22,716 nucleotides of DNA, from IMG/VR virus record IMGVR_UViG_3300042539_002098, positions 1 to 22,716 of that record, one strand, 5' to 3'. The notes beneath the pieces are model-generated. The model ran no database searches. It was given only the letters and a program-made list of their open reading frames with translations, and was not told the DNA's origin. Of this stretch, positions 6,251-13,284 are shown piece by piece. The DNA comes from a virus. Made by a program: the position numbers and the translations under genes. How positions within the stretch are numbered: position 1 is the first letter of the stretch; every line of letters starts with the position of its first letter.

Positions 6251-6480
6251 TACATTTTTTTAGGGAGTTGTTGATCTCTTAGTTTCTTTTTCCAACGAGC
6301 TTTTGCTGCGCCTGCTTTACGTTTACGAATAGTAGTTGGTTTTTCGTAAAACATTTTTTGACGTAGTGTTTCTAAAACTCCTGAATCATCAACTTTCTGT
6401 TTGAATTTTTTTAGGGCTATATTAATCGGGGTATCACCGACAATAACAGAGTTTCCAGTTATGGGTTTATACTTTCTCAT
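6247..6480 (-). CDS. rpsU: Ribosomal protein bS21
   Basis: 77 residues. The bS21 family pattern is clear: PINIALKKFKQKVDDSGVL, then EKPTTIRKRKAGAAKARWKKK, and the C-terminal QLPKKMY. The C-terminus closely follows the QLPKKLY ending of betaproteobacterial bS21, which points to the host. bS21 sits at the mRNA exit of the 30S subunit and affects initiation; phage copies are known in aquatic phages and are thought to bias host ribosomes. The ATG lies inside the last codons of clpX (14-nt overlap), so the two proteins are made from one message. Confidence 0.93.
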   Translation of the reverse strand: MRKYKPITGNSVIVGDTPINIALKKFKQKVDDSGVLETLRQKMFYEKPTTIRKRKAGAAKARWKKKLRDQQLPKKMY

Positions 6481-7693
6481 TTTTCATTTTATCAAAAATC
6501 ATGATAGCAGGACTACCATCTATAGTATCTTTACTTATCATAATCGACTTTAAACCGCGTTCTACAAGGTTCATTGCATCAAATTGATACGGTAGCAATG
6601 TTTTTTCGATAACATTCTTAAGTCCTCGTGCGTTTGTTTTTAGCTCTTTTGCACGTTCAGCAATTAATTTTAAGCTTTCGTCGTCAAATGTCAATTCTAT
6701 ACCATCTAACTCAAAAAGATATTGATATTGTTTAATTAAGCTGTTCTTTGTATCTTTAAGTACACTAACTAGTTGATCAACATCTAACTCATCTACACTA
6801 ATACAAAGACCAAATCGTCCTACAAATTCCGGAATCAATCCATATTTAATTAAATCTTTTGTAGTTACTTCTTGATAAATTTGGTTATTTGTTTCAATAG
6901 TCTTTATATTAGCAGAGAAGCCAATAGATTTAGATTCTTTTCTTTGTTCAATAATCTTGTCTAACCCAACAAACGCTCCACCACAGATAAACAAGATTCC
7001 AGTTGTATCGATTTCTTGAATTTCAATATTAGGGTGTTTTCTTTTTCCTGAGCTAGGGATACGCATGATACTACCTTCGATCATCTTTAGTAGACCTTGT
7101 TGAACTCCTTCTCCACTAACATCTCTAGTGATACTAACATTTTCACCTTTTCGAGAAATTTTATCTATTTCGTCTATGTATACAATACCTCTACTGGCTT
7201 TTTCTAGATCTCCATCTGCTTCGTTAATTAATCTAGTTAATATGCTTTCTATATCATCTCCAACATAACCAGCTTCTGTTAAACCAGTTGCATCACAAAT
7301 AGCAAATGGTAAATCTAAATAATCGGCAATCTTTTTTGCCATCATGGTTTTACCGCAACCAGTTGGGCCGAGCATTAGAACGTTTGTTTTTTCTAATTTA
7401 ATATCATTGCTAGGATGATTAATACGTTTATAGTGTTGACTTACTGCTACACTTAATGCAATTTTTGCATCATCTTGGCCGATAACATATTCGTCAAGAT
7501 AGTCTTTTATTAAACTTGGATTAAGTAGTTTTTTCTCGTTAGGAAAATTTTTGATTTTATTATCATCGAGTATACTTACACATAGATCAATGCAATCGTT
7601 ACAAATTGCAGCGTGTTCTCCGACGATTAATTTTTCAACGTCTTCTTTACTTTTGTTACAAAAATCACATTTGTGCGTCATTAATTTTGTCAT
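6467..7693 (-). CDS. clpX: ClpX, full-length AAA+ unfoldase
   Basis: 408 residues, close to bacterial ClpX length, with all parts. The N-terminal zinc domain has C9, C12, C31 and C34. In the AAA+ domain Walker A is GPTGCGKT (109-116), the pore-1 loop is GYVG (142-145), Walker B is IVYIDEIDK (170-178), the ssrA-contacting RKH loop is at 218-220, the ClpP-docking IGF loop is IGFSA (257-261), and the sensor-2 Arg lies in NARGLKN. It should therefore form a hexamer, recognise ssrA-type tags and dock on host ClpP. The start at 7693 has an AAGAG ribosome-binding site; it overlaps the upstream gene by 29 nt. A phage-encoded complete ClpX beside a phage tmRNA is unusual. Confidence 0.95.
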   Translation of the reverse strand: MTKLMTHKCDFCNKSKEDVEKLIVGEHAAICNDCIDLCVSILDDNKIKNFPNEKKLLNPSLIKDYLDEYVIGQDDAKIALSVAVSQHYKRINHPSNDIKLEKTNVLMLGPTGCGKTMMAKKIADYLDLPFAICDATGLTEAGYVGDDIESILTRLINEADGDLEKASRGIVYIDEIDKISRKGENVSITRDVSGEGVQQGLLKMIEGSIMRIPSSGKRKHPNIEIQEIDTTGILFICGGAFVGLDKIIEQRKESKSIGFSANIKTIETNNQIYQEVTTKDLIKYGLIPEFVGRFGLCISVDELDVDQLVSVLKDTKNSLIKQYQYLFELDGIELTFDDESLKLIAERAKELKTNARGLKNVIEKTLLPYQFDAMNLVERGLKSIMISKDTIDGSPAIMIFDKMKNEKV

Positions 7694-12083: not shown

Positions 12084-12743
12084 ATGTTTCTACCGTATGT
12101 GTATATTGTTCGTAACAGAGTCAATGACAAATTTTATATAGGAATGCGTTCTGCAAACAAAGTAGTTGCCGAAGAAGATTTAGGAATTAAGTATTTTACT
12201 TCTTCAAAATATGTAAAGAATAATTTTTTAGATTTTGATATACAAATAGTAGCATATTTCGTAGATCAATTATCAGCGTTTGAGTTTGAAAATGAATTGA
12301 TCAAAGAGCACTGGGGAGATCCATTACTTCTCAACCGGCATTATCAAAAATCAATGTCTAAATTTTCAATGACTGGAGCCAAACGAGCAGATTTAGCAGA
12401 ATACAACAAAAAGACAAAATCTAAACCTAAAGAAGAGAGAATTTATAAATGTGTTATATGTAATGAAATTTTTACACGATTAGAATTTTGCCATTATCCA
12501 ATTAAAGAAGAATTTGTATGCGGGCATAAATGCAACGGAGTTCGAAACGGTAGAAAGACTTTAGGTAAACCAAATTTAAAATCAAGAATATCGTTGAAGG
12601 GAAGACCGGCGTGGAACAAAGGAAAATCACATTCGGGATTCGGATCTTCTAACAATCCTATGAAGGACCCAACTAAAGTGGCGAAAATGTTAGAAACTAG
12701 AAGAATCAATAAAGAAAAGAAGAGGGGCAATAAGCCCCTCTAA
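12084..12743 (+). CDS. GIY-YIG homing-type endonuclease
   Basis: 219 residues, the only plus-strand gene. The GIY-YIG domain (about 4-95) shows YVYIVRN, KFYIGMR and a Glu-containing helix with FEFENELIKEHWG. A zinc-finger-like region follows (CVICNEIF and CGHKC, about 122-150), then GRPAWNKGKSH and NNPMKDP, which look like NUMOD3-type DNA-binding repeats. This architecture belongs to free-standing phage homing endonucleases. The gene is convergent with the tmRNA gene, and its last six codons overlap the tmRNA terminator stem. It lies exactly between a complete tmRNA tag region and an orphan tag end, which suggests that its target is the tag sequence (inference). Confidence 0.88.
   Translation: MFLPYVYIVRNRVNDKFYIGMRSANKVVAEEDLGIKYFTSSKYVKNNFLDFDIQIVAYFVDQLSAFEFENELIKEHWGDPLLLNRHYQKSMSKFSMTGAKRADLAEYNKKTKSKPKEERIYKCVICNEIFTRLEFCHYPIKEEFVCGHKCNGVRNGRKTLGKPNLKSRISLKGRPAWNKGKSHSGFGSSNNPMKDPTKVAKMLETRRINKEKKRGNKPL
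12710..12741 (-). terminator. tmRNA terminator, embedded in the GIY-YIG coding end
   Basis: AGAGGGGC-AATAA-GCCCCTCT, a perfect 8-bp stem, followed on the minus strand by TCTTTTCTTT. On the plus strand the same bases encode the last residues of the endonuclease. Confidence 0.85.
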
Positions 12744-12913
12744 GAAGCGTTTGGTTATAAGGCGCTTCTTAAACCCCATTCAAGGCTCACGCGGCTAAGC
12801 GTACCTCGAACTGCTCATCATTGGCAGCATTTACTTGTTTTGCTTCTTTTACGGAGATCGCCTACCGTGCTGTCCACTCTGTTTACTCACGCAATCGAAA
12901 CCATGACCGACCC
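12742..12913 (-). ncRNA. ssrA: tmRNA coding piece (5' half of a permuted ssrA gene)
   Basis: The 5' end GGGTCGG pairs with CCGATCC of the acceptor piece, placing a G-U at the third pair, the identity element for alanyl-tRNA synthetase. The D-arm region TGGTTTCGA matches the conserved tmRNA block. An ACGG/CCGT hairpin (PK1 region) precedes the tag codons at 12787-12828: (V N) A ANDEQFEVRLAA, then TGA. The tag ends in LAA, the ClpX degron. After the tag a perfect 9-bp hairpin (12741-12749 with 12763-12771) and a terminator close the gene. The order acceptor piece first, coding piece second shows a circularly permuted, two-piece tmRNA as in alphaproteobacteria, some betaproteobacteria and some cyanobacteria. 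Confidence 0.92.
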
Positions 12914-12914
12914 A

Positions 12915-13118
12915 TCATAAAGAAACTTTGAACAATGGAATATCCTCGCCCATATGTCTAATGTATTCTAGCGTAGTAGGAAATTCTGACAATGTTCCTT
13001 TGTGACTTTTGATTTCGATCTTAGTTTGATCTTCATTTTCAAGTCCGTAAAAAAACATAGTAGTAGCACCACTATCTAGTTGCTCTTTGAAATGTTGTTT
13101 GATGTTCATAATGTACAT
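12915..13118 (-). CDS. 67-aa protein encoded inside the tmRNA intervening segment
   Basis: The frame starts 12 nt after the CCA end of the acceptor piece and its TGA ends one base before the 5' G of the coding piece, so it fills the segment normally cut out during tmRNA maturation. The first ATG is at 13118; the ATG at 13109 (MNIKQHF) is an alternative. No strong Shine-Dalgarno is seen. The product has an amphipathic helix, MFFYGLENEDQTKIEIKSHKG as two strands, and FPTTLEYIRHMGED; it reads like a normal small soluble protein with AT-rich phage codon use. Family not recognised. Confidence 0.6.
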   Translation of the reverse strand: MYIMNIKQHFKEQLDSGATTMFFYGLENEDQTKIEIKSHKGTLSEFPTTLEYIRHMGEDIPLFKVSL

Positions 13119-13130
13119 ACAATTTCTTTA

Positions 13131-13200
13131 TGGTGGATCGGGCGGGAGTCGAACCCGCGTCTTGCCTGCATCTACGTTGCTTCTTTCCTTTCGGTCTCTA
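13131..13200 (-). ncRNA. ssrA: tmRNA acceptor piece (3' half of a permuted ssrA gene)
   Basis: The 3' end is a T-arm GCGGG-TTCGACT-CCCGC, then CCGATCC, A and an encoded CCA. It looks like a tRNA end, but no tRNA body precedes it. The acceptor strand pairs with GGGTCGG at 12907-12913, 218 bases downstream. GCAA just before the T-arm can pair with TTGC of the coding piece as part of P2. The 5' boundary is uncertain; a 6-bp hairpin (13202-13217) lies at its edge. A TATAAT at 13219-13224 has no good -35 box, so expression may depend on the csp promoter. Confidence 0.9.
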
Positions 13201-13209
13201 CAGCAATAA

Positions 13210-13284
13210 TCATTGCTTATTATAATAATCATATAACCAAACTAGGGCTGCTATGACTAAAAATATTAAACAAGCTTCAATCAT
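13210..13284 (-). CDS. Possible 24-aa membrane peptide
   Basis: ATG to TGA encodes MIEACLIFLVIAALVWLYDY plus NKQ-type polar end, a single hydrophobic helix. No ribosome-binding site is visible and it lies just upstream of the tmRNA acceptor piece. The strongly membrane-like composition is the only support. Confidence 0.3.
   Translation of the reverse strand: MIEACLIFLVIAALVWLYDYYNKQ

Follow-up and report, generated by a model that had tools for sequence, protein, structure and literature searches.

The window, the whole 22,716-nt stretch of DNA that was analysed (IMG/VR virus record IMGVR_UViG_3300042539_002098), carries on its minus strand a permuted tmRNA gene, the spacer between the two pieces of that gene, and an open reading frame (ORF) within the spacer. 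The features are listed below by window position.

12696 to 13225, minus strand: permuted tmRNA gene, whole call (ARAGORN and Rfam).
13131 to 13158, minus strand: acceptor piece, with the T-arm at 13158-13142, the acceptor 3' strand CCGAUCC at 13141-13135, A73, and an encoded CCA at 13133-13131 (sequence and Rfam).
12914 to 13130, minus strand: intervening (spacer) segment of 217 nt (sequence reading).
13121 to 13130, minus strand: 5' strand of the closing helix (UAAAGAAA...), also the weak Shine-Dalgarno (SD)-like leader of the ORF (pairing analysis and fold).
12915 to 13118, minus strand: cargo ORF (P0001) of 67 codons (ORF list, homologue comparison and selection).
12918 to 12925, minus strand: 3' strand of the closing helix (UUUCUUUA), also the last ORF codons, VSL (pairing analysis, fold and homologue comparison).
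12914 to 12917, minus strand: UGAU element directly before the coding piece, its UGA being the ORF stop (pairing analysis).
12907 to 12913, minus strand: acceptor 5' strand GGGUCGG, the start of the coding piece (sequence and Rfam); the expected RNase P site would lie on its 5' side.
12787 to 12828, minus strand: tag reading frame (ARAGORN).
12721 to 12741, minus strand: intrinsic-terminator-like hairpin with a T-run, downstream of the coding piece (sequence scan).

The tmRNA of the window is a genuine permuted tmRNA. The earlier note, made from the sequence alone, had read a two-piece gene here without naming the strand and proposed a covariance-model check. This reading was borne out, as Rfam family RF04321 (tmRNA_permuted) matches 12787-13187 (minus strand) with full coverage of the model and an E-value of 2.7e-15, scoring 85 bits where the gathering threshold is 47. 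ARAGORN also calls the permuted form, with the tag AANDEQFEVRLAA followed by a stop. The tag has a ClpXP-type tail, with RLAA at its end instead of ALAA. On reading the sequence, CCGAUCC (followed by ACCA) and GGGUCGG form seven pairs between the two pieces, and the G-U pair that the note had placed at position 3 was confirmed at position 3/70. This G3.U70 is the alanine identity pair. In the predicted fold of the precursor RNA, the acceptor stem is stacked on the closing helix, with a z-score of -3.37 that beats all 200 shuffles. A group I intron is absent from the window tmRNA, in which the T-loop is uninterrupted and no Rfam intron family matched. No clear sigma-70 promoter was seen upstream of the tmRNA, where nothing exceeded chance.

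Other genes of the window deserve mention. A GIY-YIG-like ORF at 12084-12743 on the plus strand, assigned by eye from its motif and having no Pfam match, abuts the tmRNA, and its 3' end overlaps the tmRNA terminator. The same contig encodes ClpS (314-619), an Hsp20-type chaperone (675-1109), and ClpX with its zinc finger (6467-7693), all on the minus strand. These three could form a proteolysis set acting on tagged proteins.

The 217-nt segment is filled by the 67-codon ORF exactly as had been described: it begins 12 nt after the CCA, and a single base (U) separates its UGA stop from the coding piece. Homologues start at the second ATG (13109), probably the conserved start, and the native protein, counted from there, may be 64 aa long. 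IMG/VR yielded 10 relatives in the first search and 45 loci by profile. In four other phage lineages (L002, L004, L005, and L041), the ORF also lies inside a permuted tmRNA that both Rfam and ARAGORN recognize, and the relatives within tmRNAs keep the same junctions down to 44% protein identity (L041). The synonymous-site comparison suggested in the note gave dN/dS values of 0.06-0.25 for close in-tmRNA pairs of this family, i.e., purifying selection, and examination of the relatives' spacer ORFs for stops and frameshifts left the reading as a gene standing. The window ORF is thus a real protein gene under purifying selection.

More than 30 homologues of the ORF are free-standing, outside tmRNAs. 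In L009/L010 (3001-3509), a short-spacer tmRNA is directly preceded by a homologue, which is an alternative linkage of the same pair. The window ORF has no significant match in Pfam or PHROGs and no significant solved relative in a PDB fold search, and its match in BFVD is one uncharacterized phage protein (E 1.5e-5). The AlphaFold model, which is of moderate confidence (pLDDT 75), contains one helix and four strands. The product would thus be a small phage protein with this predicted fold, and it is also encoded outside tmRNAs. Among cultured phages, neither the ORF (tblastn) nor the tmRNA (blastn) of the window found a match, and no relative of the ORF was confirmed in bacterial genomes. The sole survey of bacterial spacers was an exact-pattern scan of the GTDB collection with the junction pattern TCCACCATAAGGAARTTTRATG, which gave no exact match.

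The window is one instance of a recurring arrangement. IMG/VR was scanned with both junctions and with a coding-piece motif, which gave at least 181 permuted tmRNA loci with at least 170 distinct spacers and reached only part of tmRNA diversity. Since the locus finder demanded G3.U70 and pairing, these two features are no independent evidence for the extended set, for which Rfam and ARAGORN serve instead; Rfam confirmed the tmRNA independently at 19 of the 19 cargo loci tested. A spacer was called strictly coding if it had an SD of at least 4 nt, an ATG or GTG 8-17 nt after the CCA, at least 18 codons, and a stop no more than 14 nt from the coding piece. By this test, 75 of 170 spacers are coding, where shuffles that keep both ends in place would give 9.7. 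Of the spacers that reach 150 nt, 34/48 are coding, and shuffling of the interior predicts 0.44. The junction scans are biased towards coding spacers, and the fair rate therefore comes from the loci found by the coding-piece motif, a sample unselected on spacer content, in which 12 of 82 are strictly coding (2.3 expected). About 85% of the spacers in that sample are thus noncoding by the strict test, and cargo is therefore not needed for tmRNA function. A looser test finds 88/170 coding spacers against 8.9 expected by shuffling; the cargo falls into at least 44 protein clusters among the matches listed, with related members within clusters, so that spacer counts are not counts of independent events.

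The cargo types include thioredoxin, HNH-like proteins, several families of short hydrophobic or transmembrane peptides, and many unknowns. The thioredoxin is full-length (PF00085, 4e-21), and the HNH-like cargo of several phages matches Pfam at 5e-4, slightly below the curated cut-off. One pair of transmembrane-peptide cargos differs by 11 synonymous and 0 nonsynonymous changes. A 125-residue cargo considered as GNAT-like was dropped, as Pfam gave no support beyond a weak winged-helix hint. Tags at cargo loci include the type ANDxxxALAA. Chance ORFs, assembly errors, and RNA-structure constraints taken for coding were considered as a rival explanation. Some of the calls made by the looser criteria have no SD and probably arose by chance, as is expected for about 9 of the 88. 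However, the arrangement recurs on independent contigs with dN/dS far below 1, a thioredoxin among the cargos, and a large excess over shuffles, which makes chance or artefact a very improbable source of the whole. The protein-coding spacer is a recurring, exchangeable cargo slot in many uncultured phages. The note's protein gene in a removed tmRNA spacer is therefore real, and its description as a single case was an understatement.

Eight permuted tmRNAs of cultured phages (Marzo, X1, BUCT-ZZ01, Rb1, QDWS359, QDWS595, Tunturi_5, and JWDelta) showed no coding spacer on inspection. The JWDelta tmRNA (Achromobacter phage, L471, about 1230-1440) is unannotated in that stretch of its record and has a noncoding spacer of about 200 nt, closed by TAGTGACTCTGT/ACAGAGTCACTA, with TGAT before GGG. 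A match in Bacillus phage G was set aside, as the gene is annotated as ending at the acceptor, i.e., the standard form. Among 12 cargo-phage records, which are mostly fragments, none showed an SmpB gene, and host SmpB would thus be used. Three loci (L055, L111, and L088) hold two short ORFs in tandem within the spacer. Noncoding spacers of L244, L252, L255, L298, and L317 carry a T-arm-like GGTTCGA motif, perhaps the remnant of a second acceptor piece. Unusually long tags of 26 and 28 residues are predicted in L046 (5727-6142) and L208 (2110-2538). A tRNA with anticodon CUA (ARAGORN 'Pyl') is present in L016, L017, L018, L026, L044, L046, L048, L049, and L107; such tRNAs are common in such phages and are probably amber suppressors. 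The segment L001 1-1294 contains two permuted tmRNAs in tandem. The first shares the spacer ORF of the window, and a GIY-YIG gene on the opposite strand splits its coding piece; the second is intact, and its short spacer is noncoding.

Phages exchange cargo at constant tmRNA flanks. L338 and L409 are syntenic segments in which about 650 nt of flank on either side are 94-95% identical and the tmRNA pieces 96-98% identical. The spacer of L338 codes for 66 residues distantly related to the window ORF, whereas that of L409 codes for a 24-residue hydrophobic peptide, and the two have no similarity. In the pair L237/L291, the coding piece is identical over 150 nt and the acceptor piece over 69 nt, with one spacer noncoding and the other coding. 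Conversely, one cargo family is paired with coding pieces too diverged to align. The simplest account of the exchange would be recombination within the tmRNA flanks, which are conserved. Alternatively, nucleases whose genes lie within or next to the tmRNA might cut cargo-less tmRNAs and have the spacer copied in, as intron homing endonucleases do. The swapping of spacers between constant flanks would fit this homing-type mobility, as would the HNH-like cargo ORFs of several phages, the GIY-YIG gene that interrupts an L001 tmRNA, and the GIY-YIG-like ORF that abuts the tmRNA of the window. However, most cargos are non-nuclease and ordinary phage recombination in conserved flanks suffices, so that homing is considered unlikely.

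The ends of the spacer form a helix. In coding and noncoding spacers alike, nucleotide i pairs with nucleotide -(4+i), which gives a helix offset by a tetranucleotide, and many pair types are seen in its covariation. The register is sharp: the first six pairs all form at offset 4 in 69% of coding and 65% of noncoding spacers, against at most 10% at other offsets. Over eight pairs, coding spacers average 7.49, compared with 6.58 (sd 0.08) for shuffled partners; the corresponding means for noncoding spacers are 7.22 and 4.56 (sd 0.17). The tetranucleotide UGAU precedes the coding piece in 47/49 coding and 36/65 noncoding spacers, and UAAU takes its place in 13 further noncoding ones. Since the helix and UGAU are also found in noncoding spacers, both belong to the tmRNA, and the cargo makes use of them. 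An SD match of at least 5 nt lies in the left strand of the helix in 36 of 49 coding spacers, but in only 7 of 65 noncoding ones. In 40 strict coding cases, 95% of SD positions are inside the paired helix, and the spacing between SD and start is mostly 5-7. The window has a weaker SD (AAAGA) than its relatives, in which the SD reads UAAGGA. The UGA of UGAU is the cargo stop in 71 of the 88 spacers that are coding by the looser test, and the cargos that do not stop there end mostly 9-14 nt before the coding piece. The helix is weaker in coding spacers, with a median stability of -5.3 kcal/mol against -8.3 kcal/mol in noncoding spacers (p 6e-7), which may follow from SD composition alone.

The helix also bears on the protein. 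The C-terminal VSL is present in the in-tmRNA homologues compared and in 0/36 free-standing homologues, and the more distant in-tmRNA relatives in L188 and L338 stop 13 nt earlier instead. A role of VSL as a protein signal was rejected, since it is missing from the 36 free-standing homologues and is explained by the helix. As VSL occurs only inside tmRNAs and follows from the helix, it appears that an RNA constraint wrote the C-terminal end of the window protein.

These features could reflect economy alone, a discarded spacer being packed with small genes that use the tmRNA promoter, where SD and stop lie in the helix for want of room and no coupling exists. Diverse and exchangeable cargo is what such packing would give, and the helix and UGAU occur without cargo. 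On the other side, SD and stop are reused precisely inside the helix across dozens of unrelated cargos, and packing is not universal, as many spacers stay noncoding. Economy without coupling falls slightly short of an even chance in our estimate.

The explanation favoured with high confidence is that the window contains a functional-looking permuted tmRNA whose spacer is a protein-coding cargo slot, in which the closing helix and UGAU double as SD, last codons, and usually the stop, and the cargo is exchanged. The tmRNA, the ORF, its selection, the helix, and the exchange were demonstrated computationally. Points that speak against the explanation are the weak SD of the window, the absence of a clear promoter, the noncoding spacers of the eight cultured phages, the large share of noncoding spacers overall, and SD composition as a possible cause of the weaker coding helices. 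In the proposed mechanism, a single transcript would give the acceptor piece, the cargo mRNA, and the coding piece. Pairing of the initial ~8-10 nt of the spacer with the ~8-10 nt preceding UGAU would extend the acceptor stem. This closing helix, general to the phage permuted tmRNAs examined, most likely helps to align both pieces for RNase P and 3' processing. Its 5' strand would serve as the cargo SD, its 3' strand as the last codons, and the UGA of UGAU usually as the stop, and it is by this reuse that the cargo fits between two processing sites. The cargo may be translated from the nascent RNA before the helix closes, or from the cut-out RNA. As the ribosome-binding site is inside the helix, initiation and precursor folding would compete. 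RNase P would cleave at G1, one base past the cargo stop, and ribosomes on a cut-out mRNA that ends there could become clients of this very tmRNA. The SD in the helix and the stop one base short of the coding piece make a link between tmRNA maturation and cargo expression plausible, for which the note had proposed that maturation would release or destroy the mRNA.

A further layer on this cargo-slot explanation is a choice between translation and maturation, in which the helix hides the ribosome-binding site once the precursor is complete, and the spacer senses translation and tunes tmRNA output. Free ribosomes would load early, translate the cargo, and delay the pairing of the tmRNA pieces; if ribosomes were scarce or stalled, the precursor would fold and be processed, giving more tmRNA. 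The paired SD nucleotides of the 40 strict coding cases and the weaker helices of coding spacers agree with this, and the 3' strand of the helix is transcribed only after the ORF. Moreover, the footprint of a ribosome at termination would reach the coding-piece start and cover it. However, noncoding spacers have the helix too, and processing may be its only role. The switch is thus a tentative proposal, clearly below an even chance. That the tmRNA precursor acts as a translation sensor in the fuller sense, with ribosome supply choosing between cargo protein and rescue-RNA maturation and the cargo from cut-out RNA itself exposed to tagging, is considered doubtful.

The arrangement can be compared with known systems. 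Permuted tmRNAs of phages are already known, e.g., in Methylophilales phage Melnitz (PMC9004378). The window shares the acceptor-first order, spacer, and coding piece with the permuted tmRNAs of Alphaproteobacteria, Betaproteobacteria, and Cyanobacteria (RF04321/RF01849-RF01851), and also the encoded CCA, G3.U70, and a tag ending in LAA, but its spacer is a protein gene. The spacer oddities in a 2025 tmRNA database of 97,179 sequences are one tRNA-Ala and one repetitive element, and a search of that text found no mention of protein-coding spacers (PMC11915505). The earlier note knew of no described case; likewise, no earlier description of a protein-coding tmRNA spacer was found in the literature searched, coverage of which was incomplete, and priority is uncertain.

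In tmRNAs with group I introns, LAGLIDADG homing endonuclease ORFs occupy 23/844 introns (PMC11915505), and a protein ORF likewise lies in a segment missing from the mature RNA. In contrast, here there is no intron, the spacer is at the permutation point, the cargo is varied and mostly non-nuclease, and SD and stop form part of the closing helix. The ArfA mRNA lacks a stop codon and is thereby repressed by trans-translation (PMC10107115). With RNase P cleavage ahead of GGG, the cargo mRNA would similarly end 1 nt after its stop and its ribosomes could be tmRNA clients, although the cargo keeps an intact stop codon and matched no rescue-factor family. Processing of the tRNA type also frees a protein mRNA in tRNA-mRNA operons, of which E. 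coli thrU-tyrU-glyT-thrT-tufB and tyrT-tpr are examples. The mRNA of the window differs in lying inside one functional RNA, between its halves and sharing a helix with it.

Permuted tmRNA spacers, so far treated as waste, are thus a gene slot in many uncultured phages. The slot conceals a class of small proteins, with many predicted transmembrane peptides among them, which escape annotation because gene callers commonly place no genes inside RNA genes. The finding opens to test the processing of permuted tmRNAs, through the conserved helix and UGAU, and a tie between the supply of rescue RNA and translation, as well as the reason why phages carry tmRNA at all. It also reveals modular gene exchange inside a noncoding RNA that is usually regarded as conserved housekeeping machinery.
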